A DNA stretch of 64,000 nucleotides from the NCBI RefSeq assembly GCF_964204645.1, contig NC_134035.1, positions 3,672,001 through 3,736,000 of the forward strand, in the 5' to 3' direction. The translations under genes and the position numbers were made by a program. Position 1 is the first letter of the stretch, and each line of letters starts with the position of its first letter. The notes below the pieces were generated by a model that had not been told where the DNA came from, did no database searches, and saw only the letters and a program-made list of their open reading frames with translations. Shown here in pieces: positions 10,415 to 41,200 of this stretch. Source of the stretch: Tubulanus polymorphus (lineage: Eukaryota > Nemertea > Palaeonemertea > Tubulaniformes > Tubulanidae).

Positions 10415-13400
10415 AGAGCCGTATAACAGCGAAAATTGGCTATGGAAGTTAAATTACTATTTTCAATATCGTTCATCTGAATAGAATGCTAAATTGCAAC
10501 CATCGTGAAAATCATTATCATTAAGCGAGCATGTTTCGATGCGATTCACCGTGAACCTTGTGGCTGATGTAACATAGGTGTTGGGTTCACGAACGGAGAT
10601 CACTGCGGATACAACCATTTCCAGGACTAGAGCGCACGCCATATCGGAAACTTTACAGATTAATGATATAACGCTTATCTTTATCCTTATTCTGATACGG
10701 GATCGGGGTATCAAATATCGAATGACTGATGGATTTCTCGAGAGATGTCGATAACTCATTTACGAGGAAATAAATGCCCGGCATCTTTTGCGAGGAGTCG
10801 ATAAAACGGCCGTATCGACGAGACGTAGATGGATATCCGTGAAACCTACAGGCTCGGCGACACTGATTTCCCTGCGGTACACCGCGTGAAACCGCGAAAA
10901 GAACAAAAAATTGATTCTACCATATAAATCACCGATGTTACGCGGATAAGGTTAACGGTCGCCTCCACGTGTCTTCTACGTGTAATAATTATATTTCGCA
11001 GCGATTTATTTGCAGCCGCGGCGAAGACAGCTCAATTTTTCGTTAATTATATACAGAATGCGTTCGTACCCGACGGTGATTTAGTAACCGGGGTGGAGAT
11101 GCGGGGGTGTCGACGGGCAGGGGAAGTCGGTAGTCATCCCTTGCGTATTGAATGCCAGTTCGTTCATTGCTTGCTCCCAGTGTATTTATTACTCTATTTC
11201 ATACATCGGATTTGCATTTTTCAAACGTTTTTGAATACGTAAATGCAGCTGGTGGAAAAAGCATGAATTAGATACTTTTTTCTCTTCGAAACAACGCGAA
11301 AGGTTTCAAACTAATGATCGATAATTCGCTTAATACGTTAATATCAACATCATCAATTTCCGATTTCAAAATCAAACCCTCTGTTTCGTCAACGGCAGGT
11401 GTGATGGGTTTGTAAGGGACACCAAATCAAAAAAAAAAATCAAACGAAATCTACCGATTAACTAAATGATAAAATGAAAGTCCCTATTTTAAGATCCAAC
11501 GTCAACAGTGTCGAGTAACACTGTGCGTCAACTTCAGACTGGTCAACGGCTGGTTGATAAGTCGACTGCCGGCTTATGCATCAACCGAACGCCGAAAACA
11601 TAAACCAAATTGTAGTTAGTCTCACTGGAAAGGAAACTTTCTATATCTTACTTCGAAATGATGTAGTTAGGCGGTTTTCTTCTTAAGTTGGATTACAGAC
11701 CCGCCGACGAACGTTTCCAATTTCTAGGTATAAAGAATATGTATTTCTATTCTTTACCCGGAGCCCCTCATTTTTAAGCATGGATTTAGAAACGAAAGTA
11801 AACATTTATAATTTCTTCCACAATGCCACATCATCCTTTGACATCACACAAAAAAATCGCGGTTGGGAATGGGTGTTCTAATGGATATATTGTCAGTAGA
11901 TAGCGTGATATGTAAAAATGGCCGCGTCATGTGTGTAGGCAATAAATAGAGAAAATATTCGAAAACATTAGGCAAAACGACCTCAAAGTAGAACGATTTT
12001 TTTTTCTAATCCCCTCCCCCGATCAATCAATTTGTAGTGAATGAATTCAATGTTTTAAGAGATTTAGAAAATTATTTCAAGTCCATCGAAATCCTCCGTC
12101 TCCCAACTTAAAATGAAAATACGGCCTTACGAATATTTCATTCGTTTGAAACATGAATTCGAAAATCCTCCCACACCGCCAGCCTGGGAAAATTTGGTTT
12201 TTGATATTGGTTTTAAACGCGATTTGAGGCCATATGTTACCAAGATTAGACTTAGAGGAAGTACTGCTACATATATACGCATAGAATAGAAATCACGGTG
12301 AAATTTTATAAGTGAATAAAAAGTACTGGATGAAATTAATGATTTGATGATTAATTTTTGCTGTAATAATGTATATTCTATCGAACAGTGCGGTCTGTTT
12401 TATCCATACTCGCTCATATTTGTATATCTCGGTCTTTTAGATTAAGACCGATATTTGAGATTAATTAAACGTTGTTGATTTTGTGTTCGGATTGCAGGCG
12501 AATTATTTGCGAACTAAGAACTCACTTCCGAAATGATTTTTTAACGTAGGGAGCGATCGTGCTAACCAGTAGACCTATAGAATTTCTAGTCAACTTGGCC
12601 AGTGGTTGTTCAGCTTGTGCTATTTGCGTAACAGTCTGAATAATCCAGATCTCCGTCATCTAAAACAGGTAACGAATCTTTTGGCATCGCCTGACCCATA
12701 ACTCTTAATAAGGAAGCTAGCAGTATTCATAAAAAAGTCGATAGTCATCGTTTTGTACATGCGTCGCAGACTGCATATGTCGATAAATGAGAACTTAATA
12801 ATATCTGTATTCGCTGTTATTGTATAACTGTATGAAAACTGTATAGAATCTAATAAAAACACTAGAATTTTTATGAGTTATGAATTTTAATCATAACCCA
12901 CCCGTAAGCGGAGACAAATGTCAAGGTCGCACAGTCGTGAGCAGTCGTGATTATCTAGGATGCACTGATTGCGGGTCTGCAGGCTGCCACGTAACATCAT
13001 CAAATACTCGGGATATGCGGTATTTCCGATTCTAAACATGCTTATTAAACTTCAAATCGTGGAGAAAAAAATCAACGCGATGTGCGGCGAAAGCTAGTGA
13101 GGGTATAATCTATAATATGTGAAATCATAATCGTTTCGTTTGAATGACAGGCTGATTAAGGCGACAGACATGTGAAATGCGAATCACAATATTTTTTAAT
13201 GAAACGGTTTAACTTCGACAATCCTTTATTTTTAGCGCGTTTTCGAATAATTTTGGATGCATGAATAATTCAATTCCAAAGGCTTTATTTCAAAGGCTTG
13301 CTGAAATGTGCATATATGTATGTATATATGACCCTTATCAGTCGCCAAGGTATGTTTTTAAGCGTGCTTTTTTGAACTCTTTTATCTTCGTATCAGGATT

Positions 13401-13761
13401 GGTAATGACAATGTTTGAATTCATTGTTCGAATCATCTTGTTTTAACGCGCAAATCTCCTCGTCGCGGATCATTTAGAAATGGTCCCATCTCCAAAGGGC
13501 AATTGATCTCTACTAAGAGTTGAAATCCAATAATATCGTTCCACGGTTCAGTCCACGCAGAAAAGAAATCCTGAATCCGTAGTAAATTGATTTCGCAGAA
13601 GATTTTACCAAACAGGTGTAGTTAACGGAATTCTGACCCATCCCTTCAAAGTTGGAAATATTCTCAAAATTTTTCGATATACTTATTGGTGGGCGCGGGG
13701 AATACGGAAGTTAAAAACACATTTGAATATTAGAAGCAGAAATTAACACCGATATATAAAC

Positions 13762-13767
13762 TTTATT
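13762..13767 (-). terminator. PolyA signal of the cyclodipeptide synthase gene
   Basis: AATAAA on the minus strand, about 80 bp past the CDPS stop codon; the canonical cleavage/polyadenylation hexamer in the expected place. Confidence 0.6.
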
Positions 13768-13848
13768 CCTTATCCTTAGATTTTCATTTATAACTTAAAA
13801 CTCAACAATTCGAATCAGTGGCGCGTTTGTGTATAATATGATACGTTA

Positions 13849-14376
13849 CTAATTGACGACGACTTCGTTTCTGAATGTCTTAACTTTACCGTCGTAGCGA
13901 CCCGAATAGAACGACCTGAAGAACTTATCGCCCGGCTCATGGTAGACATCGATGTACTCTTCGAAGCCCTTGTAGATTTCCGGAATTGCCATATCGAACG
14001 CTAGCTCTTTCAGCAGGAATTTCACTCCCTCTTGCGTGTCGACTTCTACCGGCGAGTTGGAGGGCCGGTCCAAGCTTTGAACGATCGACATGAGCACGTC
14101 TTTCGTCAGTATTTCGGCGTCCTGTTTGAACTCCGAACACGTCTCGTACAGGCGAAGTACCTCGGTAAGCTTGTTCTTGTAAGCGACTGATGTTTCTATT
14201 TCTGCTTTCCAGTCGACGAAATGGAACTTCTTCTGGTCGATATCCAAATCTTCCATCACTTTCTGAGCCAAAGTCACCAGCTTGCGCGTTTCTTTGCGAG
14301 CGATCTTCTCCGGCTTGCTTCGGCCGACTGCTATGTAATTATGAATGTACGGCACCGTGGGTATAATCACAAGCAC
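13849..14376 (-). CDS. Cyclodipeptide synthase, last coding exon (C-terminal two thirds)
   Basis: This 175-codon exon starts right after a minus-strand acceptor (TTTTTGTAG, complement 14,385-14,377) and ends at a stop. CDPS enzymes have a Rossmann-like fold and take aminoacyl groups from two aminoacyl-tRNAs to make a cyclic dipeptide. Family marks seen: the strand after the active-site loop (VLVIIPTVPYIHNYI); a Lys/Arg-rich helix (RKETRKL) of the kind used to contact tRNA; the helix FLLKELAF, whose Glu matches the conserved Glu182 of AlbC; and VYHEPGDKFF, matching the Tyr202-His203 stretch of NYH-type CDPSs. The residue at the AlbC Tyr178 position (four before the Glu) is Phe here. A polyA signal (AATAAA, complement 13,762-13,767) follows the stop. 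The GTG at the exon edge is a Val codon after splicing, not a start. The family call is strong; the product is unknown. Confidence 0.82.
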   Translation of the reverse strand: MLVIIPTVPYIHNYIAVGRSKPEKIARKETRKLVTLAQKVMEDLDIDQKKFHFVDWKAEIETSVAYKNKLTEVLRLYETCSEFKQDAEILTKDVLMSIVQSLDRPSNSPVEVDTQEGVKFLLKELAFDMAIPEIYKGFEEYIDVYHEPGDKFFRSFYSGRYDGKVKTFRNEVVVN

Positions 14377-15217
14377 CTACAAAAAGACCGAATGCTGATG
14401 TACCGGTTTATCAGTCTGTTTTTGTTTTTAAATATACTCCTCAGAAAATATTTGGAATCGACTGCAATATGTCATAGAAGATTAAACGGATTGATCCGCA
14501 ATGCGGGCGTGAGCTGTATGTTTTACATCACTTATGTCAAACTGATGGCAGGTTGGTATGTTCGTCTACAGCGCATTGAGGAAGCTTACTAATTTCACAG
14601 CAGGTACTGGCATCACGAACAAACCGCGAGTGAATTTAGGGGATGGTCTCGAGGGGTCTAGCCCCCGCCTATTTATTGAGGTCGCCCTTTTTGTCAATTA
14701 GACAACGATTGTTCAAAACCACAAATTCGACACTCATCCTTGCGAAAAAATTGCTAATTTTCGGATGTTTTTCTTCAAAAATCATGAATGAAAAACACTG
14801 AGGTTGGTACTCCGTATTTATTTGTATGATTTCTAAGGACTTTCGAAAAATCACAATTCAACGCAATATTCCTTGCAATCTTGATAAAACTATCGTATTT
14901 CGATTTTTTCGCCATTTTGGGGGGAGCGAACAGTCGTTACACGGACATCAGCTATCATCAACGGCGCTAATTAAGTCGCGTTCTCCGCCCAGCAAGATAA
15001 ATCGGTAAGTTCTAAACCTCGTTTTAAGGAAAAAATACGACCCCTATGACGACTCGGCTCTAGGTTTTTTTTTATTTCATACGATTTTTGAGTGAAAATT
15101 TCCGAATTTACGTCTATACGTCATGCAAGAAAGCATCAGGGTCCAGTTGCTTTTTAGAATAACTAACTAACGAAAGCGTACAGGGAAGTGCAAATGAGCG
15201 TATTGAAGGATTCTTAC

Positions 15218-15356
15218 CTTTTCGGCATTTTGGTCAGCGAATGCCAACATCTTTGCCATGTTCTCTTCTTTATAGTAGTATGTGTTGCCGGGACATGATC
15301 CACAAACGATCGGTAGATTTTTTCCTTTCAGATATTCCAAGTAGTTCGAATCTGAC
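15218..15356 (-). CDS. Cyclodipeptide synthase, active-site exon
   Basis: On the minus strand this exon ends ...GCCGAAAAG before donor GTAAGAATCC and joins in phase 0 to the exon at 14,376, giving DQNAEK-VLVIIP. It encodes the CDPS signature: NLPIVCGSCPGNTYYY aligns with GISAGNSYF of AlbC. The Gly-Asn of the loop is present (Asn40 of the NYH class), and the helix ENMAKMLAFAD follows as expected. The position of the catalytic nucleophile Ser37 holds Cys (G-S-C-P-G-N), with a Ser one residue earlier. The acceptor at 15,357-15,358 (AAAG|GTCAG) is weak in pyrimidines, but an in-frame stop just upstream requires a splice there. The splice and alignment are visible; activity of the Cys form is unknown. 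Confidence 0.75.
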
Positions 15357-15689
15357 CTTTATTATATAGATAAAATACATACGTGAATATGTAATCTCCA
15401 TCTATGATAAACATAGATTGACAAAAAATGAAAAACTTTTAACAATCGACAAATATGAGATTTTTCTTTGAAAATCCTTAACAAAACTCACGGGCTCATT
15501 ATGGGAGGCGTATGTGGCGTTCGGTAACCGTGCCTGTCTGTGAGGTACTGAATGGATCGCCCTTTAGTCACGATCTATTCTGTCATCGCCATATGGAACA
15601 AGCTAATGAAAAAGTTATTATCCCAACTTATATTTACCATAACTGATCTGAATGATGTGAAATTCAATAAATTACCAAGTTATTAATGA

Positions 15690-15840
15690 ACGACTGGGAC
15701 ATTTTCCTACTTTACAAATGGGACAATTTTTCCGGGGACATATTTTCCAGGGAAACTTTTTCCCTGGGACATTTTTTCCGAGGACATATTTTCCAGGACA
15801 TTTTTTCCGGGTAGATCTTTTCTTGGGACATTTTTTACCG
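15690..15840. repeat. Short imperfect tandem repeat in the CDPS gene region
   Basis: Roughly 18-20-bp units built on 'gggacattttttcc' and 'ggacatattttccagg' recur about eight times. It lies between the active-site exon and the probable upstream exon of the CDPS gene, so it is probably intronic. Confidence 0.7.
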
Positions 15841-16109
15841 TATACCTGGTAATTCATGTTATTTCCTCTTTTGATAAATTACATGATTTTTGTTGCCAGA
15901 TTCACTCAGCATCGATTTCACAGAAAAATAAAAAAATGTCCGGAGGAGGGCCACAGACCCCATAAATTGAGCCTTTGGCGCTCGCTTCTCGTGACACAAA
16001 ATGTGCCCTCTTTTCATCCTGCTTAACAAAAGAAAAAAGGATGTTGCAATGTGGAATCAACCTTAAACTACAATATTTACACAAATGCCGCTGAAAATTT
16101 CCTTCTTAC

Positions 16110-16220
16110 TTCCCTGCTAATATCGAAATCAGTTGTTGAGTTATTGTCTCGTGCGGATCTGGTAATCTTGAGACTTTGATCGGGGAATCCAGATAATCAG
16201 GAAATTCTGGGTGTCCATAC
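16110..16220 (-). CDS. Probable upstream exon of the cyclodipeptide synthase gene
   Basis: A donor (GTAAGAAGG, complement 16,101-16,109) closes an open stretch that ends in phase 2 and fits the next exon exactly (AA|G TCA gives Lys-Ser). The peptide ends in HETITQQLISILAGK, a helix-like lead-in before the first Rossmann strand, where CDPSs carry N-terminal sequence. An acceptor CAG lies at 16,221-16,223; an alternative acceptor gives a start near 16,206. The start codon exon is not identified. A donor at about 16,500 (CTA|GTAAGAAT) preceded by an open stretch at about 16,507-16,640 is a candidate for the exon before this one. Phase fit is seen; membership is inferred. Confidence 0.45.
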
Positions 16221-16317
16221 CTGTGCGAACCATGCGGGGGCACACACGCACGGACACATAGATAAAACCGTACCCCCCGGGAAGAGCGAATATGTAATCG
16301 ATCTAATATGAGAATCA

Positions 16318-16460
16318 TTCATTGGGGATGAGTACCATTTTGTTCTAGAATGCCCTTTCCTTCAGAATCTTCGCACCCGGTTCATTAAACCATTCTTTAG
16401 AATAAGACCAAGTGACTTCAAATTGATACAATTATTAAATTGTAAGGGCAAGCAGCTCTG
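16318..16460 (+). pseudogene. LINE reverse transcriptase C-terminal fragment
   Basis: Plus-strand translation reads GDEYHFVLECPFLQNLRTRF and continues with FKLIQLLNCKG, which matches the common C-terminal end of LINE-type open reading frames (an 'xDExHFLxxCPxxxxxR' motif). Nothing upstream continues the reverse transcriptase, so it is a short relic. Confidence 0.5.
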
Positions 16461-17232
16461 TAAACCTGACTCGCATTATACCGCGTAAGCTTAATTCAAA
16501 ATTCTTACTAGCGTCCCCGATGTCGGACTTCGTCGTCGTGTCCGATCTATCGAGCACTGAGTCCGCTCCAGCAGTCCGAGTTGTTCGTGTAAAATGGTGG
16601 ATGTCGTGCGCGACGATTTGTTATGAAACATTTTGCAAATATCCACTTCCAAAAAGATAACTGATATCATTTCCACAAATACACAAGTGTAAGCGTAATT
16701 TATCACTTTTACCATGTTTAAGTGTAAGGATGAGTCGGTGCGCCTGTTAATCTATCGCCCGGCTTTGAACTTACAGCTGACGAAAAGGATGGCGATTCAA
16801 TTCAATACTTTTTTATTCAAGTTGCCACGCCGGGCCCCTTCTCTCCATAGTCAGTAACCTGTCTGTGGTTTAGTTTCACATTCGGATATTTTCACAAACC
16901 ACATATCGTTGGTATATGCCCATCTGATTATAAAAAAGCTATCCACCAACGATTAGGTAACTACCCCCCCTCCCCCCCCCTCCCGGTCGACGCGACAGCT
17001 AAAAATGCCCTAAATAGAATAATCACCTAATCATTGGTTGTCTCAGTTAGGATTTCTAAAATAACAGTCGCCTTTCCGTTATGCTTGTAGTAGTGTGGAA
17101 GATTAAGCTTCAAAATTATGAATGGCTCTTTTCATTATATAAGGCTCATTATAGGGTGAAAAAAAGCCATATTACTGTAATATAAGTAATTCATTCGAAT
17201 TATTTCATTTATCGCTAATTTATTTCTTGCAG

Positions 17233-18137
17233 CTGATTGTTTATCGAACAATATGGGAGCTACGTATTCCACGGAGGCAGCTGCAGCTGTAACGACGACG
17301 ACTGGTGCGAATATCTTACCAACGACCACGACGAAAGAATGCCCGATGAATAATCAGGCATCCGAAGCCGAAACCGAACATTCCGTTCAAATGAAATACG
17401 CCGGCGAATGTCCGATGCACCGCGAGGAGGGAACCGCGTCGGGCGCGACCGCGCAGCGCGAGCATACCGTGCAGATGTCGTACGCGAGCGAGTGCCCGAT
17501 GCATTTATCGCAGCTGGCCGCCGACGAAAAGATCGACCCGACGAACATGATGCCGCCGCCGAACCAGCAACCGTCGCCGGGGCAACCGTTTCGATTGTCG
17601 ACGACGCGCGAAGTCTCGACGATTCCGAAAGGCGGCGCCACCGCCGATAACGCCGGCCAGAACTGGGTCTACCCGTCGCAGCAGATGTTCTGGAACGCGA
17701 TGATTCGCAAAGGCTGGCGCTGGGAGGACGATGCGTTGTCGGCGAACGACATGGCGCACATCATACGCATACACAACGCGAACAATGAACACGCGTGGCA
17801 GGAGGTGTTGCGCTGGGAGGCGTTGCACGCGCGCGAATGCGACGACCCGAAGCTCGTGCGGTTCGGCGGCAAGGCGAAGGAGTTCTCGCCGCGCGCGCGC
17901 ATACGCGGCTGGATGGGTTACGAGTTGCCGTTCGATCGACACGACTGGATCGTCGACCGCTGCGGTCGCGAGGTGCGCTACGTGATCGACTACTACGACG
18001 GCGGCGCGGTCGACCCGGCGACGAGTCGGTTCACGTTGCTTGACGTGCGGCCGGCGTTGGATTCGTTCGAGGCGTTGTGGGATCGCATGACGGTCGCCTG
18101 GTGGCGGTGGACGTCGAAGGATCAGTCGGAAAGTTGA
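17233..18137 (+). CDS. HCCS: Holocytochrome c-type synthase (cytochrome c heme lyase)
   Basis: The coding part is 17,253-18,137 (294 residues), in one exon whose 5' UTR starts after an acceptor (TTTCTTGCAG) at 17,232. HCCS works in the mitochondrial intermembrane space and attaches heme to the CXXCH motif of apocytochrome c. Diagnostic stretches are [14 protein letters not shown] (about 137-150), [14 protein letters not shown] (173-186), whose first His (174) matches the heme-ligating His154 of human HCCS, and [13 protein letters not shown] (226-238). The N-terminal third has three Cys-Pro-Met heme regulatory-type motifs (Cys 30, 53, 81); the second and third sit in a repeated block ([28 protein letters not shown]). 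The core is collinear with the human protein (268 aa); the extra length is N-terminal. The coding sequence is much more GC- and CpG-rich than its flanks. The upstream 5' UTR exon was not located. Confidence 0.95.
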
Positions 18138-21457: not shown

Positions 21458-24400
21458 ATGTCGGTCAATCAACAACAACTTCAGCAACAACAACAACAAC
21501 AGCAGCAGCAGCAGCAGACCGGTCAACAACAGAGTAATACACAACAGCAACAACAACAGCAGCAACAACAACAACAACAGAATATAGAAACCGCTCATAC
21601 GACGTACGATGTTGTAGTTGTTGTGGAAGGAACTGCGAATCTCGGCGCTTATTTCAACTCGTTAAAAGAGCACTACATTCTACCCTCATTAGAGTAAGTA
21701 CTACATTCTACTATTGTAGATAGTTGGGACTATTTCCAGTCTTCATGAACAGGGATCAAAATTTGCTGTTGTAACCACCCGAGATGCACAATAGATATTT
21801 TTCCTAAATATACTACTATAAAAATATATATGTTTCTTGACTAAATGCCTCTCAGAGATGCTCAGAAAACTCTAAAATGATAGTAAAATTTCAAAAAAAT
21901 TTTGCTGATATGCCTTTCCGCCCTAAATCAAGAATATATGCCCTTTTTATTGGTCAACATAGTCACAACATGCACCTGGAGTATCAATTTTTTTAGCCTA
22001 AGCTTTAACTTTTTCATGAAACTGATCCTGAACCTGTTTCACGAATTATGTCTAATATCCATTGTACAAAGTGTGTGTAGATTTAGGCCATCGTGGGTAT
22101 TTCACGTACACGTACTGCCGGGCTTATCCCGAGTTCAGAGTTACTTTGAATAGATGTGGCAGTTTCAACAGTAAGCTGATGTTGGCCATAAACTGGCTGA
22201 AGTTGAAGATGTGCGTACCGTTAATGTAAGCTGATATCTTTTTTTTATATAGATATTTTAGTGGCGGTCCACCGGAGGAAGTCGATTATGGATGTGATGT
22301 AAGTTTTGACACTTAAAGCTATTTATCAATTCATGAGAGATAACATTTTCTTTGATATTTTGCTTAATTTCTCCGATGAAAAACGAGAAGTTCAATTTGA
22401 AGCATCTCCAATGTTTTCTTATTCTAATTGAGTTTAGAAATTAGATAGTTTGAAATTTCTTGACAGTTTGAAAATTGTTACCAAACCCATAAACTCAATT
22501 TAATTATATTTCTTGAGGGGTCACCGGCGACATAGGTTTTCAAGCAGTGATTTTGTATTGAATGGCTCATCAGAATAGGAAACTGACCTATTGCAACTTA
22601 ATACGCGAAAGTGAAAGCAAAAACGAACCCAAAATTTTGATTGTAACGGGCGTAACATACTCTCTACCGGGCGATTCTAGTTAGTATATCAGGTTTACAG
22701 ATTACACTTACTACCCCGGAATCAGTGCGGTGTATTGCGGTCGAAATGAATGCGCCAGAAGAGAATTCCAGAATCGGTATAGAGGGCGCAATCAAAACCC
22801 GCCACGTCGTACATCTTCGTTTCGCAAATCTGGATGCAACGAACTAAGTGAACGAGTTCATAGTCTGATTGGTTTACATGAACCGGGATTGAAAAGAAAA
22901 TTCCACACAATCGACCGATTATCCAAGTGGCTGCCCTGTAAAATGAAAAGGTTTCACTTACATGGTTTTTTTTTTTGTTGGGCTACACACGACGCTAGAA
23001 AATCTGCCGCTTTGATTGGAAATCGAATCAATCGAATGATCTAAACAAAATGCTTCTGCAACCCAGTTCGATGCAAGCTGTCAACTGTGTCAGTTTCGGC
23101 ATCGCAGCTGCACCTGTTAGCTTTTGTGAAAAACATCGAAGATAGACCGAGTATTTCCAGTGCGATATGCGGCATTATGGATCATGTGTTTCAGAGGCCT
23201 GTAGATTCCCCGTTGTTCACAGGATTATTTGTCTGCCGATCGATATGTCAGTTTTTCAGAGGCGTCATTCGCCTATTTCTGTGTGAAATGTCAAAGATTA
23301 AATGTATATCTGTTGGAATCATTAAAACTAATAATTACACGGATGTGATGCAAATGTGGAGAAAAAAAAACGTGAACATTTCTGAATAGTAAATTTTTGT
23401 GTGAAAAACGTGAACATTTTGGAAAACATGTGAAACTTTTTAAAAAAAGATTTATGTAGTTTTTGTAGGCTGTATATATATATGTCCTTTTATCTCTGAG
23501 CTCTGCTTTAAGAGTAAATGTATATCTGTTCATTGTCTAGTATCCGTCATTGATTGGTATGTACCATAAAAATTGGTCTTGCAATAGGAAAACTAGGTGA
23601 ATCACGCGTCTCAATAAATTCTGATTAGTCTTTAGTTATGATAAGATTTTGATTGAATTTGAATAGAAATCCGGCGTCAATGTCGTACTGTACGCTAGAG
23701 ACACCTGGCGAACTCGTATCGATTCTTATTCTTTTATTTCATTTACAGAATAGTTGTACGTTATTCTGTCTGGTCGTTTTCACTGCTGCTGACTACGCTC
23801 CCGGTCCGCCGGTGAAGTGTATAGCTCCGACGGCTAGCACGCACGAATTCATGAAATGGATGGACCAGATTTTGTACGTATTTTGCGAAAATTCAACTCC
23901 ATAAGCCGAGCACATTCGGAATAAACTGTTGTATCTAATTAACAGATTTATAGGCGGTGGTGGAGAGGCTTGTAGTCATGTGGCTGAAGGTTTGAGTACG
24001 GCCTGTCAAGTATTTGATGACCTGCAAGAACTCAGAAAATCCATGTAAGTTTCCCTGGTCTATATCTGTAACTGTTTATCAGTCATCTCTACCTAGAGAG
24101 AAGTGATATTGGTATTATTACCCCTAGCCTATATCTGTTACTGTGTATCAGTCATCTCTCCCTGGAGAGAAGTGATATTGGTATTATCCCCCCTAGCCTA
24201 TATCTGTAACTGTGTATCAGTCATCTCTCCCTAGAGAGAAGTGATATTGGTATTATAACCCCTAGTCTATATCTGTAACTGTGTATCAGTCATCTCTCCC
24301 TGGAGAGAAGTGATATTGGTATTATGACCCCTAGTCTATATCTGTAACTGTGTATCAGTCATCTGTACCTGGAGGGAAGTGATATTGGTATTATCACCCC

Positions 24401-27400
24401 TAGTCTATATCTGTCACTGTGTATCGGTCATCTCTACCTGGAGAGAAGTGATATTGGTATTATTACCCCTAGTCTATATCTGTAACTGTGTATCAGTCAT
24501 CTCTACCTGGAGGGAAGTGATATTGGTATTATCACCCCTAGTATATATCTGTCACTGTGTATCAGTCATCTCTACCTGAGAGAAGTGATATTGGTATTAT
24601 CACCCCTAGACTATATCTGTAACTGTGTATCGGTCATCTCTACCTGGAGAGAAGTGATATTGGTATTATCACCCCTAGTCTATATCTGTAACTGTATATC
24701 AGTCATCTCTACCTAGAGAGAAGTGAGATTGGTATTATCACCCCTAGCCTATATCTGTTACTGTGTATCAGTCATCTCTACCTGGAGGGAAGTGAGATTG
24801 GTATTGTCACCCCTAGCCTATATCTGTTACTGTGTATCAGTCATCTCTCCCTAGAGAGAAGTGAGATTGGTATTATCACCCCTAGCCTATATCTGTTACT
24901 GTGTATCAGTCATCTCTACCTGGAGGGAAGTGAGATTGGTATTGTCACCCCTAGCCTATATCTGTTACTGTGTATCAGTCATCTCTCCCTAGAGAGAAGT
25001 GAGATTGGTATTATCACCCCTAGCCTATATCTGTTACTGTGTATCAGTCATCTCTACCTGGAGGGAAGTGAGATTGGTATTGTCACCCCTAGCCTATATC
25101 TGTTACTGTGTATCAGTCATCTCTCCCTAGAGAGAAGTGAGATTGGTATTATCACCCCTAGCCTATATCCGTTACTGTGTATCAGTCATCTCTACCTGGA
25201 GAGAAGTGATGTTGGTATTATCACCCCTAGCCTATATCTGTCACTGTGTATCAGTCATCTCTACCTGGATGGTAGTGATATTGGTATTATTACCCCTAGC
25301 CTATATCTGTTACTGTGTATCAGTCATCTCTCCTTGGAGAGAAGTGACATTGGTATTATGACCCCTAGCATTTATCTGTAACTGTATATCAGTCATCTCT
25401 ACCTGGAGAGAAATGATATTGGTATCATTACCCCTAGCCTTTATCTGTAACTGTATATCAGTCATCTCTACCTGGATGGTAGTGATATTGGTATTATTAC
25501 CCCTAGCCTATATCTGTCACTGTGTATCAGTCATCTCTACCTGGAGAGAAGTGATAATGATATTATCACCCCTAGTCTATATCTGTTACTGTGTATCAGT
25601 CATCTCTCCTTGGAGAGAAGTGACATTGGTATTATGACCCCTAGTCTTTATCTGTAACTGTATATCAGTCATCTCTACCTGGAGGGAAGTGATATTGGTA
25701 TTATAACCCCTAGCCTTTATCTGTAACTGTATATCAGTCATCTCTACCTGGAGAGAAGTGATATTGGTATCATTACCCCTAGCCTATATCTGTAACTGTG
25801 TATCAGTCATCTCTACCTGGATGGTAGTGAGTGATATTGGTATTATTACCCCTAGCCTATATCTGTTACTGTGTATCAGTCATCTCTCCTTGGAGAGAAG
25901 TGACATTGGTATTATGACCCCTAGCCTTTATCTGTAACTGTATATCAGTCATCTCTACCTGGAGAGAAGTGATATTGGTATCATTACCCCTAGCCTTTAT
26001 CTGTAACTGTATATCAGTCATCTCTACCTGGATGGTAGTGAGTGATATTGGTATTATTACCCCTAGCCTATATCTGTTACTGTGTATCAGTCATCTCTCC
26101 TTGGAGAGAAGTGACATTGGTATTATGACCCCTAGCCTTTATCTGTAACTGTATATCAGTCATCTCTACCTGGAGAGAAGTGATATTGGTATCATTACCC
26201 CTAGCCTTTATCTGTAACTGTATATCAGTCATCTCTACCTGGAGGGAAGTGATATTGGTATTATTACCCCTAGCCTATATCTGTAACTGTGTATCAGTCA
26301 TCTCTACCTGGATGGTAGTGATATTGGTATTATTACCCCTAGCCTATATCTGTCACTGTGTATCAGTCATCTCTACCTGGAGAGAAGTGATATTGATATT
26401 ATCACCCCTAGTCTATATCTGTTACTGTGTATCAGTCATCTCTACCTAGAGAGAAGTGAGATTGGTATTATCACCCCTAGCCTTTATCTGTAACTGTATA
26501 TCAGTCATCTCTACCTGGAGGGAAGCGATATTGGTATCATTACCCCTAGCCTATATCTGTAACTGTATATCAGTCATCTCTACCTGGAGGGAAGTGATAT
26601 TGGTATTATAACCCCTAGCCTTTATCTGTAACTGTATATCAGTCATCTCTACCTGGAGCGAAGTGATATTGGTATCATTACCCCTAGCCTATATCTGTAA
26701 CTGTGTATCAGTCATCTCTACCTGGATGGTAGTGATATTGGTATTATTACCCCTAGCCTATATCTGTTACTGTGTATCAGTCATCTCTCCTTGGAGAGAA
26801 GTGACATTGGTATTATTACCCCTAGCCTTTATCTGTAACTGTATATCAGTCATCTCTACCTGGAGGGAAGTGATATTGGTATTATTACCCCTAGCCTTTA
26901 TCTGTAACTGTATATCAGTCATCTCTACCTGGAGAGAAGTGATATTGGTATCATTACCCCTAGCCTATATCTGTAACTGTGTATCAGTCATCTCTACCTG
27001 GAGGGAAGTGATATTGGTATTATTACCCCTAGCCTTTATCTGTAACTGTATATCAGTCATCTCTACCTGGAGAGAAGTGAGATTGGTATTATCACCCCTA
27101 GCCTATATCTGTAACTGTATATCAGTCATCTCTACCTGGAGGGAAGCGATATTGGTATTATTACCCCTAGCCTATATCTGTAACTGTATATCAGTCATCT
27201 CTACCTGGAGGGAAGTGATATTGGTATTATTACCCCTAGCCTTTATCTGTAACTGTATATCAGTCATCTCTACCTGGAGAGAAGTGATATTGGTATCATT
27301 ACCCCTAGCCTATATCTGTAACTGTGTATCAGTCATCTCTACCTGGATGGTAGTGATATTGGTATTATTACCCCTAGCCTATATCTGTTACTGTGTATCA

Positions 27401-29214
27401 GTCATCTCTCCTTGGAGAGAAGTGACATTGGTATTATGACCCCTAGCCTTTATCTGTAACTGTATATCAGTCATCTCTACCTGGAGAGAAGTGATATTGG
27501 TATCATTACCCCTAGCCTTTATCTGTAACTGTATATCAGTCATCTCTACCTGGAGGGAAGTGATATTGGTATTATTACCTCTAGCCTATATCTGTTACTG
27601 TGTATCAGTCATCTCTCCTTGGAGAGAAGTGACATTGGTATTATGACCCCTAGCCTTTATCTGTAACTGTATATCAGTCATCTCTCCTTGGAGAGAAGTG
27701 ACATTGGTATTATGACCCCTAGCCTTTATCTGTAACTGTGTATCAGTCATCTCTACCTGGAGGGAATTGATATTGGTATCATTACCCCTAGCCTATATCT
27801 GTCACTGTGTATCAGTCATCTCTACCTGGAGAGAAGTGATATTGGTATTATTACCCCTAGCCTATATCTGTAACTGTATATCAGTCATCTCTACCTGGAG
27901 GGAAGTGATATTTGTATCATTACCCCTAGCCTTTATCTGTATCTGTGTATCAGTCATCTCTCCCTAGAGAGAAGTGAGATTGGTATCATTACCCTTAGTC
28001 TATATCTGTAACTGTGTATCAATCATCTCTTCCTGGAGAGAAGTGACATTGGTATTATCACCCCTGGTCTATATCTGTAATTGTATATCAGTCATCTCTG
28101 CCTGGAGAGAAGTGATATTGGTATTAGGGCCCCTAGCCTGTATATTTAACTGTGCCAGTCAGTCTGTCAGTCAGGCAGAATTTGTCTTATCATTTGGTTT
28201 GCCGTTGGTCTGGCGTCTCAGGAATATTTCTTTCCCTGCCATCCTTGACGTATACTTTTAAGGATTAGTGTCTTGATCGCAGACATAGGGTGTCGTCTCA
28301 ATTCCTGCTGCGCGAGATACGTTATTGTTTTTTGTATATTTCAGCACTTCAACCCAGAAGCATTGTATTCTAGTGTGTAATTCGCCGCCGTATCAAATTC
28401 CCAGTCAAAACAACATTAACTACATGGGTTACACGGCTGACGAGCTGGCTACGATGCTTGGAGAGGTAGGATTAATGTCTATTTCAACTTGACTCGATAG
28501 CACATCATGTGGCCTAGCTTGGTCAGTTTTGGTGTTACATACCGATAAAAGTCAGGACCAGCAAGGACTGGCATTGATTTTAAATCTTAAACTGTATCTA
28601 AGGATATCCAAAAAGTCTTCATTGAAAGGGGTTCATGAGAGAGAGGCCATGATTTGAAAGTTTGACAATATGTTTCCTTGCCTACATACCAAACTTCAGT
28701 GGGTAGGCATGAAATCATACTGTTAAACTTTCAAATCATGGAGTCACCATTCATTATTCAAACCCTTTCAATTCAGACTTTTCTGCAATCCTTCAATTCT
28801 GTCAAAAATGGATTGAAAAACGATATTTTAGGTCAACTGTCCACCCATTCTGGTCCTAATAAGATTTTTATCAGGTATGTAGCACCAAAATTGACTTGAG
28901 CTAGGCCGGCTGATGTGCACGGAGTCCCAATTAAGGTCGTTGACTTGGCAGGTTTATCCGAGAAATGCCCTTTCTTCTTCTGGACTCCGGCCTCCCAAGT
29001 TTCCTAGATCCGCTCCCCTGCAAACTACTTGAAAGCATACGCCGTTGATTTTGTTTTCAGCGTGGAGTGCATTTATCGATAGTCGCGCCGCGTAAATTGC
29101 CCGTGTTGCAGAAACTGTTCGATCGAGCGTGCGGCGACATTCAGCTGATGGCGCAAAAAGATTACACGATCGATTCCCGACATATGGTGCTATTGAAAGG
29201 ATATCAGTTACAAG
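21458..29214 (+). CDS. MED25: MED25 exons 1-6: polyQ leader and VWA domain
   Basis: Six exons encode the Mediator-binding VWA domain. Seen: [96 protein letters not shown] and [13 protein letters not shown], in the same order as human MED25 (for example its [49 protein letters not shown]). Unlike the human protein, the domain is preceded by two Gln runs (residues 5-20 and 29-41) coded by mixed CAA/CAG. Exon 2 is only 46 nt. Intron 4 holds the first 69-bp repeat array. Confidence 0.93.
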
Positions 29215-32200: not shown

Positions 32201-35200
32201 TTGAGTCAAAGTAATACCAGTCTATTAAACCACCTCCTGATGTGCACTGCATTGATAAACATAAAAGATTTTTCTTTGTAATACAGGGTGTCTCAGAAAA
32301 TACGTTACCCTTTGCCTTAAGGTTACTAATTCATTAACAATGATTTTAATTATTATTTCGGGAGGTATAGTTGGTAGACCTGGATGTTTACTTGAGAATG
32401 TTGAAATGAAAAAAAGTCATGCATGGCTGAGCACTAGCAGGTTTATGAATCGCCATTCGAATGCTGTCGAACCATATTTGCGGATTGTTTCATCGTGTAC
32501 GTCTATTGTTCAATAACCACCTGCCTGTTGGAAAATTGATTTAAAATCACAAAATCATTGAATTTCACTCCTTGTGATTTTATTTCCTGTCGGGAAATGT
32601 AAAAACTAGGTAATTCAAAAGACCATCAGTAGGAATCAAGGACTTAGTGTGCGGAAAGTAACACATTTTGAGAAATAGTGAATCTGATGTATCATAATTC
32701 AACGTTGAGCTTAACTGTGCATTGGTAAAAAGGTGATGATATCGAACAAGTCCCGGAGAAGCTTAATTAGTCATGAGTACCAACAATTTTTAGTAGAAAT
32801 CTGCTTCAGTTAATTTAATTTAATCTAATTAAGTGAAAGCTGAACATTTATCAATAAGCGTATATAATGCAATGATCCTTATTTCTTGTATTGGTTCGAC
32901 TCAATTTTAAGGACCATTCAAAAACATGGTCAGCCATGCACTACTTATTTCTTGCATTTAAACATTCCATCCTTGAGTAAACATCCAGGTCTACCGACCT
33001 ACCCCTAAAAAAATCTTATTTCAATTATCGTTAATGAATAAATAAGCTTTAAGCTATGGTAACACATTTTTTGAGACACCCTGTAGACATAACACTGCGA
33101 AACATCTAGCGTGTTGCTCTGATGCACGCAGCTTACCAAAACATCGAGCATGTTTTTCTGCCAAGCCTCAGTGCAATTTGAGACGGTAACATATTTCTTA
33201 ATGACGCTCATTGCCAAAATCAGGTTGAAAAATGAATGTTTCACAGTGCCGTGTGCGTTAGACTTATTTGATATCCTTCCTTTCAATGTTTCTAGTTGTA
33301 CAGGGTTCGTCGCGTTGCTTGAAAAGCTTGAAATGGCTTGAATTTGAGAAATACTACTCAAGCGCTTGAAAACAGCTTGAAAATAGATCGAAAGCTTGAA
33401 ATAATTATTTTTGACTTGAAATAAAAAGATATGGCTTGAAATGCTCGATTATCACAAATTTTCTTCTTCGCAAATTTTTTTCGATGAAAACTCTCCGGTG
33501 TCTGGAGACTTGAACATATGGGGAAATTTTGGTCATGCATGTTATCGAGCATTGATGTAAAATGGCATTGAAATCCCACACCAGGTGTGAGAGCCATGTT
33601 GAAGGCACCGCGACCTAGTCAAAGTCATTGAACATTACAAATTTGGTATTAGGCCATCCAAAAATAAAGGTCTGTTTGCCGTCACCCGACCGACCCGACT
33701 TCAAAGGTACCGAGTGGAAACTTTTTTCTTGGATTCATTGAAATAAATTTTATTTTTGATACAAATGGCCGACCCACTGCCGATGTATGAGCTACGTATG
33801 TTTGAAGTTAAGTGTGCATCGCGTGAAAACATGCCTCGACTATAGTTGATGTTTTCCAGGAAACTGGCAGTGTTCCAATAAGCTGCCATTCATTCTTAGT
33901 GACTATATTAAAGCTGGTTATGTTATAGCGTGCATATATTCAATCTACTGTTTCATTTTGAACGCAGATTTGGGATATTGTTTCCACTAAAAGAGGTGAT
34001 GATAAATTTGTTGATTTTTTTTGCCACAAAATTTTGCAAATAAAAATGATTCTACCTTCCTACTGACTTATCCCAAAAATTTTAGTAGGTGTAACGGCAA
34101 AACAGACAATTAATTTGGGATGGCCTAATATCCAAATCTTGATTGATATGAATATTTAAGCTAGGAAATGCTGAAAATCATTGTGATAAACGGGTTTCAT
34201 CTCTAACAGAATCGTATCAACTCGGAGGTTCCACTGGAATCAAAATTTTACCTCTTTTTTAACATTTTTATACGAACCTGTTAAAAATAGGCAAATTGGC
34301 TGCGACTATCGAAAATTGCTTCCAACGTGCCTTAAAAAATAGCTTGAAAATGGTATAAATCTAGCTTGAAATGGCTTGAATTTCACCTGAGCTTGAGACA
34401 ATGAACCCTGTTGTAACACCGGTAGCCGGTAGGTCATTGATTATTTTGTTTTGACTGATCGGTTTTGTTTAATTCAGGGAAACGTCATGCAACAACAACA
34501 GCAACAATCGCCGATGAATTCTCAGCCTCAGGTCGTCGCCAGCAACCAAAACCCGATCATGCAACAGAACCAAGGAATGCAAAGCATGATGGGCAACGCG
34601 GGCATGATGGGTAATCAAGGCAACCCGAACATGCCCGCACAGATGGGTCAAGGCCATCAGATGAACCAAAATCAAATGGTGCAACAGGGTCAAATGGGGC
34701 AACTCGGGCAGATGGGCCAGCAAGGGCAGATGAATATGAACCCGAATCAGCAGGTGTCGCAACAAGGTCAAATGATCGCAGGCCAGCAGCAGATGAACGT
34801 TCAGAGTCAGATGATCGGCGCCGGCGGTCAGCAAGGGGGTCTTACGCAACCGGCCGACCCGATGCATTCGCAGGGTCAGATGACGAACACAGCTCAGCTG
34901 CCGGTGATCAGAATCTGGACGGGACAACTGGAATACCAGGAGAAGGTGAAAGCGCACGCGAAAGACACCGGCACGAAGGTGACGCGGTCGTTACAGTGCG
35001 AAGTGTTCTCGCATCAAGGAGTAGAACTGTAAGCTCTTTTCATTCATTGCAGGGGAGGGGGCATCTGACCTGGAATGAGACAAATCTAGGATGAAATCAG
35101 TGAAAATTCAGGGAATTCGATAAATTTTGCCAAAAACCTAGAAAACCAAGCGATTCAAATAACCACTAATTTCTTTTATCTATTGGTGATTCGTGATATA

Positions 35201-38200
35201 TGAATAGATTAGAACATTTTAAAGATATATTTCCATTCACCTGCCACACATTCACTTGGGAAATCTCAGGGGATTTGTAAATTGACGGAAAGCAGTCACA
35301 CTGATAGATCGATTACTAATTTATTGATGTATGTTTTCTATATTTCAAAGTGGAAGCGCCAGATGGCCGCAGCGACTGATCATGCAGCTCATTCCTCAAC
35401 AGTTACTGGCTCAGCTGCACAGTTTATTCAAAGAAGCTCGAAACGTCGAGTTCAGATTCCCACAAGTCGACGATTCACTTAATAATCTACGCAGAGTGAT
35501 GTCTAATGGATTCGTAAGTAACGCAACCCGATGATGAGATTGATTTGGTGATAAGTGATGATTTGACTTAAAAGGATTTGAGTGAAGAGAAATATACATC
35601 ATTACCTCTAGCCTTTATCTGTAACTGTGTATCAGAGATCTCTCCCTGTAGAGAAGTGATATTGGTATTATTACCCCTAACCTATATCTGTAACTGTGTA
35701 TCAGTCATCTCTCCTAGAGAGAAGTGATATTGGTATTATCACCCCTAGCCTATATCTGTAACTGTGTTTCAGTCATCTCTACCTGGAGAGAATTGATATT
35801 GGTATTATCACCCCTAGCCTATATCTGTAACTGTGTTTCAGTCATCTCTACCTGGAGAGAATTGATATTGGTATTATCACCCCTAGCCTATATCTGTAAC
35901 TGTGTACCAGTCATCTCTACCTGGAGGGAAGTGATATTGGTATTATTACCCCTAGCCTATATCTGTAACCGTGTATCAGTAATCTCTCCCTAGAGAGAAG
36001 TGATATTGGTATTATTACCTTTAGCCTTTACCTGTAACCGTGTATCAGTCATCTCTACCTAGAGAGAAGTGATATTGGTATTATTACCCCTAGCCTTTAT
36101 CTGTAACTGTGTATCAGTCATCTCTCCTTGGAGAGAAGTGATATTGGTATTATTACCTCTAGCCTTTATCTGTAACTGTATATCAATCATCTCTACCTGG
36201 AGAGAAGTGATATTGATATTATTACCCCTAGTCTATATCTGTAACTGTGTATCTGTCATCTCTCCTTGGAGAGAAGTGATATTGGTATCATTACCTCTAG
36301 CCTTTATCTGTAACTGTATATCAGTCATCTCTACCTAGAGAGAAGTGACATTTGTATTATGACCCCTAGCCTTTATCTGTAACTGTGTATCAGTCATCTC
36401 TCCTTGGAGAGAAGTGATATTGGTATTATTACCTCTAGCCTTTATCTGTAACTGTATATCAATCATCTCTACCTGGAGAGAAGTGATATTGATATTATTA
36501 CCCCTAGTCTATATCTGTAACTGTGTATCTGTCATCTCTCCTTGGAGAGAAGTGATATTGGTATCATTACCCCTAGTCTATATCTGTTACTGTGTATCAG
36601 TCATCTCTCCCTGGAGAGAAGTGATATTGGTATTATTACCCCTAGCCTATATCTGTAACTGTGTATCAGTCATCTCTCCTTGGAGAGAAGTGATATTGGT
36701 ATCATTACCTCTAGCCTTTATCTGTAACTGTATATCAGTCATCTCTACCTAGAGAGAAGTGACATTTGTATTATGACCCCTAGCCTTTATCTGTAACTGT
36801 GTGTCAGTCATCTCTACCTGTAGGGAAGTGATATTGGTATCATTCCCCCTAGCCTATATCTGTAACTGTATATCAGTCATCTCTACCTGGAGAGAAGTGA
36901 TATTGGTATTATTACCCCTAACCTATATCTGTAACTGTGTATCAGTCATCTCTCCCTGTAGAGAAGTGATATTGGTATTATTACCCCTAGCCTATATCTG
37001 TAACTGTGTATCAGTCATCTCTCCTTGGAGAGAAGTGATATTGGTATCATTACCTCTAGCCTTTATCTGTAACTGTATATCAGTCATCTCTACCTAGAGA
37101 GAAGTGACATTTGTATTATGACCCCTAGCCTTTATCTGTAACTGTGTGTCAGTCATCTCTACCTGTAGGGAAGTGATATTGGTATCATTCCCCCTAGCCT
37201 ATATCTGTAACTGTATATCAGTCATCTCTACCTGGAGAGAAGTGATATTGGTATTATTACCCCTAACCTATATCTGTAACTGTGTATCAGTCATCTCTCC
37301 CTGTAGAGAAGTGATATTGGTATTATTACCCCTAGCCTATATCTGTAACTGTGTATCAGTCATCTCTCCCTGGAGAGAAGTGATATTGGTATTATTACCC
37401 CTAGCCTATAGCTGTATTTGTATATCAGTCATCTCTCCCTGGAGAGAAGTGATATTGGTATTATTACCCCTAGCCTATATCTGTAACTGTGTATCAGTCA
37501 TCTCTCCCTGGAGAGAAGTGATATTGGTATTATCACCCCTAGTCTATATCTGTAACTGTGTATCAGTCATCTCTCCTTGGAGAGAAGTGATATTGGTATT
37601 ATTACCCCTAGTCTATATCTGTAACTGTGTATCAGTCATCTCTCCTTGGAGAGAAGTGATATTGGTATTATTACCCCTAGCCTATAGCTGTATTTGTATA
37701 TCAGTCATCTCTCCCTGGAGAGAAGTGATATTGGTATTATTACCCCTAGCCTATATCTGTAACTGTGTATCAGTCATCTCTCCCTGGAGAGAAGTGATAT
37801 TGGTATTATCACCCTAGTCTATATCTGTAACTGTGTATCAATCATCTCTACCTGGAGAGAAGTGATATTGGTATCATTACCCATAGCCTATATCTGTAAC
37901 TGTGTATCAGTCATCTCTCCCTGGAGAGAAGTGATATTGGTATTATCACCCCTAGTCTATATCTGTAACTGTGTATCAGTCATCTCTCCTTGGAGAGAAG
38001 TGATATTGGTATTATTACCCCTAGTCTATATCTGTAACTGTGTATCAGTCATCTCTCCTTGGAGAGAAGTGATATTGGTATTATTACCCCTAGCCTATAG
38101 CTGTATTTGTATATCAGTCATCTCTCCCTGGAGAGAAGTGATATTGGTATTATTACCCCTAGCCTATATCTGTAACTGTGTATCAGTCATCTCTCCCTGG

Positions 38201-41200
38201 AGAGAAGTGATATTGGTATTATCACCCCTAGTCTATATCTGTAACTGTGTATCAATCATCTCTACCTGGAGAGAAGTGATATTGGTATCATTACCCATAG
38301 CCTATATCTGTAACTGTGTATCAGTCATCTCTCCCTGGAGAGAAGTGATATTGGTATTATTACCCCTAGCCTATATCTGTATCTGTGTATCAGTCATCTC
38401 TCCCTGGAGAGAAGTGACATTTGTATTATGACCCCTAGCCTTTATCTGTAACTGTGTGTCAGTCATCTCTACCTGTAGGGAAGTGATATTGGTATCATTC
38501 CCCCTAGCCTATATCTGTAACTGTATATCAGTCATCTCTACCTGGAGAGAAGTGATATTGGTATTATTACCCCTAACCTATATCTGTAACTGTGTATCAG
38601 TCATCTCTCCCTGTAGAGAAGTGATATTGGTTTTATTACCCCTAGCCTATATCTGTAACTGTGTATCAGTCATCTCTCCCTGGAGAGAAGTGATATTGGT
38701 ATTATTACCCCTAGCCTATATCTGTAACTGTGTATCAGTCATCTCTCCCTGTAGAGAAGTGATATTGGTTTTATTACCCCTAGCCTATATCTGTAACTGT
38801 GTATCAGTCATCTCTCCCTGGAGAGAAGTGATATTGGTATTATTACCCCTAGCCTATAGCTGTATTTGTATATCAGTCATCTCTCCCTGGAGAGAAGTGA
38901 TATTGGTATTATTACCCCTAGCCTATATCTGTAACTGTGTATCAGTCATCTCTCCCTGGAGAGAAGTGATATTGGTATTATCACCCCTAGTCTATATCTG
39001 TAACTGTGTATCAATCATCTCTACCTGGAGAGAAGTGATATTGGTATCATTACCCATAGCCTATATCTGTAACTGTGTATCAGTCATCTCTCCCTGGAGA
39101 GAAGTGATATTGGTATTATTACCCCTAGCCTATATCTGTATCTGTGTATCAGTCATCTCTCCCTGTAGAGAAGTGACATTGGTATTATTACCCCTAGCCT
39201 ATATCTGTTACTGTTTATCAGTCATCTCTTCCTGGAGAGAAGTGATATATTGGTATCATTACCCCTAGCCTATATCTGTAACTGTGTATCAGTAATCTCT
39301 CCCTGGAGAGAAGTGATATTGGAATTATCACCCCTAGCCTATATCTGTAATTGTGTATCAGTCATCTCCCCCTGGAGAGAAGTGATATTGGTATTATTAC
39401 CCCTAGTCTATATCTGTAACTGTTTATCAGTCATCTCTTCCTGGAGAGAAGTGATATTGGTATCATTACCCATAGCCTATATCTGTAACTGTGTATCAGT
39501 CATCTCTCCCTGGAGAGAAGTGATATTGGTATTATTACCCATAGCCTATATCTGTAACTGTGTATCAGTCATCTCTCCCTGGAGAGAAGTGATATTGGTA
39601 TTATTACCCATAGCCTATATATGTAACTGTGTATCAGTCATCTCTTCCTGGAGAGAAGTGATATTGGTATCATTACCCATAGCCTATATATGTAACTGTG
39701 TATCAGTCATCTCTCCCTGGAGAGAAGTGATATTGGTATTATTACCCCTAGCCTATATCTGTTACTGTTTATCAGTCATCTCTTCCTGGAGAGAAGTGAT
39801 ATATTGGTATCATTACCCCTAGCCTATATCTGTAACTGTGTATCAGTAATCTCTCCCTGGAGAGAAGTGATATTGGAATTATCACCCCTAGCCTATATCT
39901 GTAACTGTGTGTCACTCATCTCTTGCTGGAGAGAAGTGATATTGGTATCATTACCTCTAGCCTTTATCTGTAACCGTGTATCAGTCATCTCTCCCTGGAG
40001 AGAAGTGATATTGGTATTATTACCCCTAGCCTATATCTGTAACTGTGTATTAGTCATCTCTCCGAAGTGATATTGGTATTATCACCCCTAGCCTATATCT
40101 GTAACTGTATATCAGTCATCTCTCCCTGGAGAGAAGTGATATTGGTATTATTACCCCTAGCCTATATCTGTAACTGTTTATCAGTCATCTCTTCCTGGAG
40201 AGAAGCGATATTGGTATCATTACCCCTAGCCTATATCTGTTACTGTGTATCAGTCATCTCTACCTGGAGAGAGGTTATATTGGTATTATTACCACTAGCC
40301 TATATCTGTAACTGTGTATCAGTCATCTCTACCTAGAGAGAAGTGAGATTGGTATTATCACCCCTAACCTATATCTGCAACTGTGTATCGGTCATCTCTA
40401 CCTGGAGAGAAGTGATATTGGTATTATCACCCCTTACCTATATCTGCAACTGTGTATCGGTCATCTCTACCTGGAGAGAAGTGATATTGGTATTATTACC
40501 CCTAACCTATATCTGCAACTGTGTATCGGTCATCTCTCCCTGCTGAGAAGTGACATTGGTATTATTACCCCTAGACTATATCTGTTACTGTTTATCATTG
40601 CTACCATCTTTCAATAGAGATAAAAAGTAATTAGCGATAGCATTAATGCACCCCAATGTGGTGTAGATGCAATGAAAGGGTTAAACGGGATTTATTACTG
40701 AAGATACTGAATACTTTTGTTTCCAGGCCGGATGTGTTCATTTCCCCCAAGCTCAATGTGACGTGCGCATATTGATGCTGCTTTACAGCAATAAGAAAAG
40801 TCAGTTCATCGGCGTCGTGCCGAACGACCAGGAACGCTTCGTACAGGGCATGAGAAACGTCATCACTAATCATAAAAACGCACAGCAACAGAAAAATCAA
40901 CAACAACAAAAGGTACGTCTAGCCAGAAACATGTTATGAGGTATCCCATACTTCCAGGTCAAAACCTTTTATGTCCCTTGGGATTTTATAAATAGATATG
41001 AATTAATACTTCATGACAGCCATCAAATAGCCTTTTAGAACACCATAATTTCAACATTCAGCGCTCGCCACATTAGGGTGCCCTTCGTATTTATTTGTTT
41101 CCTTTGTGATTACTTATGTGCCCTTCAGTACCCTGGTCCCCCACCTTCCAAAAATCTTGGCTCCACCCTTGCAGGTCTTTGAAAGTTAGAGAATTTCAGC

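Follow-up and report, generated by a model that had tools for sequence, protein, structure and literature searches.

A gene of the cyclodipeptide synthase family in an animal genome with cysteine at the position of the catalytic serine

The chemistry of cyclodipeptide synthases (CDPSs) has so far been described by way of an acyl-serine ester. The NYH and XYP CDPSs are reported to have a common mechanism that uses S37, Y178, E182 and Y202 in AlbC numbering (PMC13062777). The window, which is the whole 64,000-nucleotide stretch of DNA analysed here, carries on its minus strand a gene whose product has cysteine at the position of Ser37 and phenylalanine at that of Tyr178. The question is whether such a product could still be a working CDPS or is a fold that has been turned to another use.

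A product of 222 aa was obtained when exon 15356-15218 was joined in phase to exon 14376-13849 on the minus strand. Exon 2 (15218..15356, 139 nt) was identified by its GT-AG splice sites (acceptor AAAG/GTCAG, donor AAAAG/GTAAGA) and by the phase that it keeps with exon 3, and it encodes strand beta1, the loop V-C-G-S-C-P-G-N and helix alpha1. Exon 3, the last coding exon (13849..14376, 528 nt including the stop TAG at 13849-13851), begins at the acceptor TTTTTGTAG/GTG and covers the CDPS fold from strand beta2 to the C-terminus. The intron between them is 841 nt long and has GT-AG ends. A likely polyadenylation signal, AATAAA (13762..13767, minus strand), lies about 80 nt past the stop. The intron upstream of the loop exon contains short imperfect repeats, variants of gggaaaaaatgtccc, at 15676-15857.

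The 5′ part of the gene was harder to define. A putative upstream coding exon (16110..16220, minus strand, ...TITQQLISILAGK) is open in the right phase and has splice-like sites at both ends. Its assignment is tentative because it added no family score (62.1 bits with it and 62.8 bits without it for TIGR04539). With the in-frame ATG at 16318 as candidate start, the ORF would be complete at 291 aa; this ATG is among the nine ATG-exon candidates listed for either of two acceptors that the middle exon may use. No convincing first exon was found among the listed ATG exons and split-ATG donors. The GC content of the CDPS exons (0.42, 0.41 and 0.49) was not far above that of the introns (0.36 and 0.40), and the GC3 of the joined frame was 0.58, against 0.80 in the neighbouring heme lyase gene, so composition argues only weakly for a coding frame.

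The joined 222 aa scored 62.8 bits against NCBIfam TIGR04539, tRNA-dependent cyclodipeptide synthase (E 3.3e-17, cut-off 45), and 47.8 bits against Pfam PF16715, CDPS (E 1.9e-12, cut-off 27). Exon 3 by itself reached 44.2 bits with TIGR04539, just under the cut-off of 45, and 30.9 bits with PF16715, above the cut-off of 27; exon 2 searched alone against NCBIfam gave no match. Joining exon 2 to exon 3 raised the score against a profile built from the collected prokaryote CDPS rows from 52.5 to 70.4 bits, a gain of 17.9. As controls, 6000 stop-free 46-aa peptides from the window were joined in place of exon 2, and none reached the score of exon 2; the best gave 64.6 bits (gain 12.1). An earlier note on this DNA had proposed that the two exons join in phase, and the GT-AG sites and the 62.8 bits with TIGR04539 bear this out. 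The same note held that a match to a different family would overturn its reading. We rejected a different family, since the models that passed their cut-offs were CDPS models only. The best solved-structure match by sequence was BtCDPS, with E 6e-5 over 185 residues. Judged from its sequence, with the curated cut-offs of PF16715 and TIGR04539 passed, the window protein is a member of the homologous CDPS family, a membership that does not imply enzyme activity. N40, Y202 and H203 are present in the alignment to AlbC, which places it in the NYH subfamily.

The genome has a total length of 267.8 Mb, spread over 77 contigs. A search for the Wnt family, whose genes are those of animals, gave 39 exon matches on six of these contigs and none in 14 control genomes. 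The host genome is an animal's, in agreement with what the earlier note had supposed. Bacterial contamination is unlikely because the gene has introns, adjoins a heme lyase gene and lies in a genome that carries Wnt. This neighbour, a cytochrome c/c1 heme lyase gene (17253-18134, plus strand, PF01265, 4e-62), has a single open frame and stands head to head with the CDPS gene, so that the two are divergent. Between them lies an ORF read from the sequence at 16312-16488 (DEYHFVLECPFLQNLR), which presumably encodes the C-terminus of a non-LTR reverse transcriptase. Six-frame searches of the whole genome, two with family models and one with a protein, found no second CDPS among their best candidates, and none with the serine; among these candidates, then, nothing makes the gene look like a spare paralogue.

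Other features of the window were also recorded. Two large arrays, one of 59 copies at 24053-28154 and one of 72 copies at 35601-40597 (91% matches), apparently repeat one and the same 69-bp minisatellite and carry long open frames on the plus strand. A minus-strand ORF at 61974-62798 has a GIY-YIG domain (26 bits, cut-off 22.6); GIY-YIG domains of this sort occur in some retroelements. A Gln-rich ORF at 34433-35029 has a weak Med25 match at its end (23.6 bits, below the cut-off of 25) and may represent a mediator subunit 25 exon.

The alignment placed V-C-G-S-C-P-G-N on L33-I-G-I-S37-A-G-N40 of AlbC. The column of the nucleophilic serine in the loop GxSxxN is thus occupied by cysteine (Cys22 of the 222-aa model; codon TGT, 15293..15295, minus strand). 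Tyr178, a second catalytic residue of the family, is replaced by Phe (codon TTC, 14017..14019, minus strand). The other catalytic positions are kept in the same alignment: Glu182 (codon GAG, 14005..14007), Tyr202-His203 (codons TAC CAT, 13939..13944) and Asn40 (codon AAC, 15286-15284), all on the minus strand. Glu182 and Tyr202 of the shared mechanism are therefore both present, and Asn40 completes the NYH signature with Y202 and H203. The CDPS loop, Glu helix and YH stretch described earlier were confirmed, with E on E182 and YH on Y202-H203, as were Cys at Ser37 and Phe at Tyr178. A second cysteine falls on Ile34 (codon TGT, 15302..15304, minus strand). Cys34 and Cys37 form C-G-S-C, a CXXC, at the end of strand beta1. 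This motif recalls thioredoxin-like proteins.

The serine next to the cysteine, in G-S-C, was considered as the true nucleophile under a shifted alignment. It was rejected because the spacing of G35 and N40 is kept and 224 of the 229 comparison rows have V, I or L at position 36, where the window protein has Ser. The claim could also have failed, by the earlier note's own account, through an alternative exon that brings the serine back. A six-frame scan of the ORFs overlapping 13000-17300 gave two matches to G-x-S-x-x-N/D, at 13159-13269 and 15442-15477 (a 12-aa ORF), both on the minus strand. Neither is preceded by a beta1-like strand, so no alternative Ser exon is seen and this explanation was rejected. 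In the acyl pocket (P1), with positions taken from Gondry 2018 (PMC5816076), the window protein has Asp at 186 and Asp at 200; the 229 comparison rows have no acid at 186, and at 200 no Asp and five Glu. The net charge of the alpha4 region is +4, compared with a mean of 4.6 (SD 2.6) in 225 comparison rows. In CDPSs, this region binds tRNA.

To judge how unusual these residues are, 229 rows were compared, of which 226 are distinct CDPS ORFs from prokaryotes and the other three are reference stretches. These comprise 143 profile-found rows, 78 pattern-found rows and eight others (three solved-CDPS stretches and five plasmid ORFs). The ORFs derive from 255 loci, of which L001-L004 stood outside the profile scan and L010, L100 and L101 had no hit; 250 ORFs reduced to the 226. 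Cys at 37 and Phe at 178 each occur in 0 of the 229 rows, a set that is purely prokaryotic (fungal, diatom and animal CDPSs are absent) and in which Bacillota enter through plasmids and solved structures only. The 78 pattern-found rows (80 loci) say nothing on position 37, since the search patterns held the catalytic Ser or its neighbourhood.

The 143 rows came from Pfam-profile searches, and most belong to relatives of a single Streptomyces, Amycolatopsis or Legionella, so that they are heavy in Streptomyces, Pseudonocardiaceae and Legionella. Position 37 in these rows is Ser in 136, Gly in three, Ala in two, Pro in one and a gap in one, with no Cys. Position 178 is Tyr in 133, His in three, Ser in two, Gly in one and a gap in four, with no Phe. 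One of the 143 (L201) falls in a pattern-found locus as well; leaving it out gives 135/142 for Ser and 132/142 for Tyr. After thinning (60% identity, at least 180 aa), 53 rows remained, 51 with Ser at 37 and 51 with Tyr at 178. Phylum-wide draws, centres included, had matches at E 0.001 in 1/398, 6/296 and 3/294 genomes, and the sampling of profile-found rows left out 15 listed matches (9, 0 and 6 in three of the searches). Cys34 was seen in one of the 143 rows (L191), which has Ser37.

The rows without Ser37 are of several kinds. Three of them (L252, L253 and L254) have G37, D40, S or G at 178 and Q202; they lost several sites jointly and look like dead enzymes from their sequences. Another (L236) has Ala37 with the remaining five sites intact, L228 is a short ORF changed at 37, 40, 178, 182 and 203, and L214, with a non-Ser residue at 37, is a fragment of a broken gene. 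A close prokaryote or phage relative of the window protein was rejected: the contig search returned 28 matched stretches with no relatives among them, and the phages gave none. The plasmid search gave a single match (21%, E 0.03). A match on a viral contig (L002), short and inside a 267-aa ORF, was judged unrelated from its translation, and a locus found with AlbC (L010) yielded no CDPS ORF in the profile scan.

None of the 57 other rows of a 58-row tree is more than 24% identical to the window protein, whose end branch is 3.87 changes per column long, compared with a median of 0.74. In this tree, made by a quick method, it falls among 28 of the 58 rows together with AlbC, Rv2275, YvmC and BtCDPS (SH-aLRT 97); its exact place is unsafe because its branch is very long. 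It keeps six of the 13 columns with a conservation of at least 90%, and the near-invariant columns W54F, F59A, A85P and P184A are changed. The long branch and low identity, taken with the retention of N40, E182, Y202 and H203, suggest that the sequence drifted far while the catalytic frame stayed, apart from two conservative swaps.

We favour a working thiol-based, tRNA-dependent animal CDPS of NYH type with Cys22, at the Ser37 position, as nucleophile, and we put the chances of this reading at about even. Aminoacyl groups would still be taken from tRNA. The first would be held on the cysteine as a thioester in place of the ester, a second aminoacyl-tRNA would extend it, and cyclisation would follow with Tyr202 as proton relay. 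This reading draws on the retention of N40, E182, Y202, H203 and the basic alpha4 region despite the divergence. It also draws on the small size of both swaps, from O to S and by one OH lost, as against the multi-site loss in L252-L254. The curated family scores, the open joined frame with its splice sites, AATAAA and GC3, and the lack of a second CDPS among the best candidates of the genome searches speak for it too. Since a thiol can replace the role of serine, the cysteine need not mean a dead enzyme. BtCDPS S33C is reported to have about wild-type activity with Leu-tRNA; with a small activated ester it gave 2.4 uM product per uM enzyme, compared with 0.8 for the wild type, and S33A was inactive (PMC8084100). 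Tyr202 and His203 are kept, which argues that cyclisation remains the end step.

The main objection to a thiol-based CDPS is the lost Tyr178 hydroxyl. In AlbC, Y178F is described as substantially impairing activity and the aminoacyl-enzyme step (PMC5935735), and AlbC S37C loses more activity than BtCDPS S33C (cited in PMC8084100). The changed near-invariant columns, Ser36 and the weakly coding-like composition also count against it. A more acidic nucleophile may dispense with the hydroxyl, and we infer that the thiol compensates for it in this way and that the protein is active through a thioester. We speculate that Asp186, with Asp200, points to a first residue of the product that is polar or cationic. 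Of the earlier interpretation, the family, the host kingdom and both substitutions stand; the altered chemistry is still something that we infer, and an engineered Cys CDPS is active (PMC8084100). The present analysis adds to it the CXXC motif, the acidic residue of the acyl pocket, the several candidate starts at the N-terminus and the published S-to-C work.

Several other explanations were weighed. The CDPS fold may be repurposed or inactive, with the gene kept and cyclic dipeptides no longer made; such a pseudo-enzyme may bind aminoacyl-tRNA or a small ligand. The joint loss of the catalytic Ser and Tyr178 fits this, as do the acid in the acyl pocket, the very long branch with its other changed near-invariant columns, and the occurrence of apparent dead CDPSs in prokaryotes as well (L252-L254). 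However, Glu182, Tyr202, His203, Asn40 and the loop frame are retained, the swaps are conservative, and Cys is a nucleophile, which the Gly, Ala or Pro in the six rows without Ser37 are not. We regard this explanation as rather unlikely. A related idea is a thioester-based aminoacyl-transferase or aminoacyl-tRNA deacylase, in which the Cys would hand the aminoacyl group to water, another amine or a thiol. Thioesters react more readily than esters, the altered P1 pocket could suit another substrate or acceptor, and BtCDPS S33C, unlike the wild type, is reported to accumulate no acyl-enzyme with the activated ester (PMC8084100). The cyclisation residue Tyr202 is kept, however, and nothing positive speaks for another acceptor, which makes a transferase or deacylase distinctly improbable.

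The cysteine could also reflect a sequence artefact, a recent pseudogene or an allele. A single base separates TGT from a Ser codon, a convincing first exon was not found, the retroelement-like ORF at 16312-16488 adjoins the 5′ part, the composition is weakly coding-like, and the gene may have no expression. Against this, the joined frame is open, the splice sites and AATAAA are in place, and one base error cannot account for Phe178, Cys34 and Ser36 too. We hold it to be the least probable of the explanations. The thiol-based CDPS might further be redox-gated: a Cys34-Cys37 disulfide would turn the nucleophile off and reduction would turn it on, with thioester loading, a dispensable Tyr178 and an acidic pocket that takes a different first residue. 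To this fuller scheme we give a small chance. If true, it would be both a natural thiol CDPS and a redox-controlled peptide-making enzyme in animals.

A natural animal Cys member would show whether the ping-pong reaction runs on a thioester in vivo and which residues change with the nucleophile, for which Tyr178 is the candidate. It would set a natural enzyme beside the engineered S-to-C variants, one of them designed to trap an intermediate. The open-access literature searched contained no report of a naturally occurring Cys CDPS. The large survey Gondry 2018 describes the removal of sequences without the catalytic Ser, and it counts at least five NYH sequences from animals, Nvec-CDPS2 plus four more recent ones (PMC5816076). 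By this rule its animal members should have Ser, and natural Cys variants would be overlooked. The earlier note would have lost its point if all animal CDPSs had Cys and Phe, and the survey's rule makes that unlikely (PMC5816076). The locus also exposes a blind spot, as surveys that discard Ser-less sequences drop exactly such cases. Elsewhere in eukaryotes, a review counts twelve CDPSs in four phyla, including Annelida and Cnidaria (PMC11610984), and candidate CDPS genes are described from diatoms (PMC8027222).

Among known systems, AlbC (Streptomyces noursei, NYH; PDB 3oqv) resembles the window protein in family by profile, in the loop frame GxxxxN and in N40, E182, Y202 and H203, and differs in having Ser37 and Tyr178 where the window protein has Cys and Phe. 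In PDB 4q24, AlbC S37C, the Cys at 37 was engineered to attach a substrate analogue (PMC5935735), whereas in the window protein the Cys at the same place is natural. BtCDPS (Bacillus thermoamylovorans; PDB 6ztu, 7azu) is the best solved match and its S33C variant is described as active (PMC8084100), but its natural nucleophile is Ser33 and it has the helper Tyr175. The animal NYH CDPSs, among them Nvec-CDPS2 of Nematostella, share the animal host and the subfamily; by the survey's rule they are expected to have Ser (PMC5816076). The Platynereis CDPS, which is reported to be induced in the antibacterial immune response, is likewise a stand-alone CDPS domain in a marine animal, and it is set apart by its description under the family signature GxSxxp (PMC2922099).
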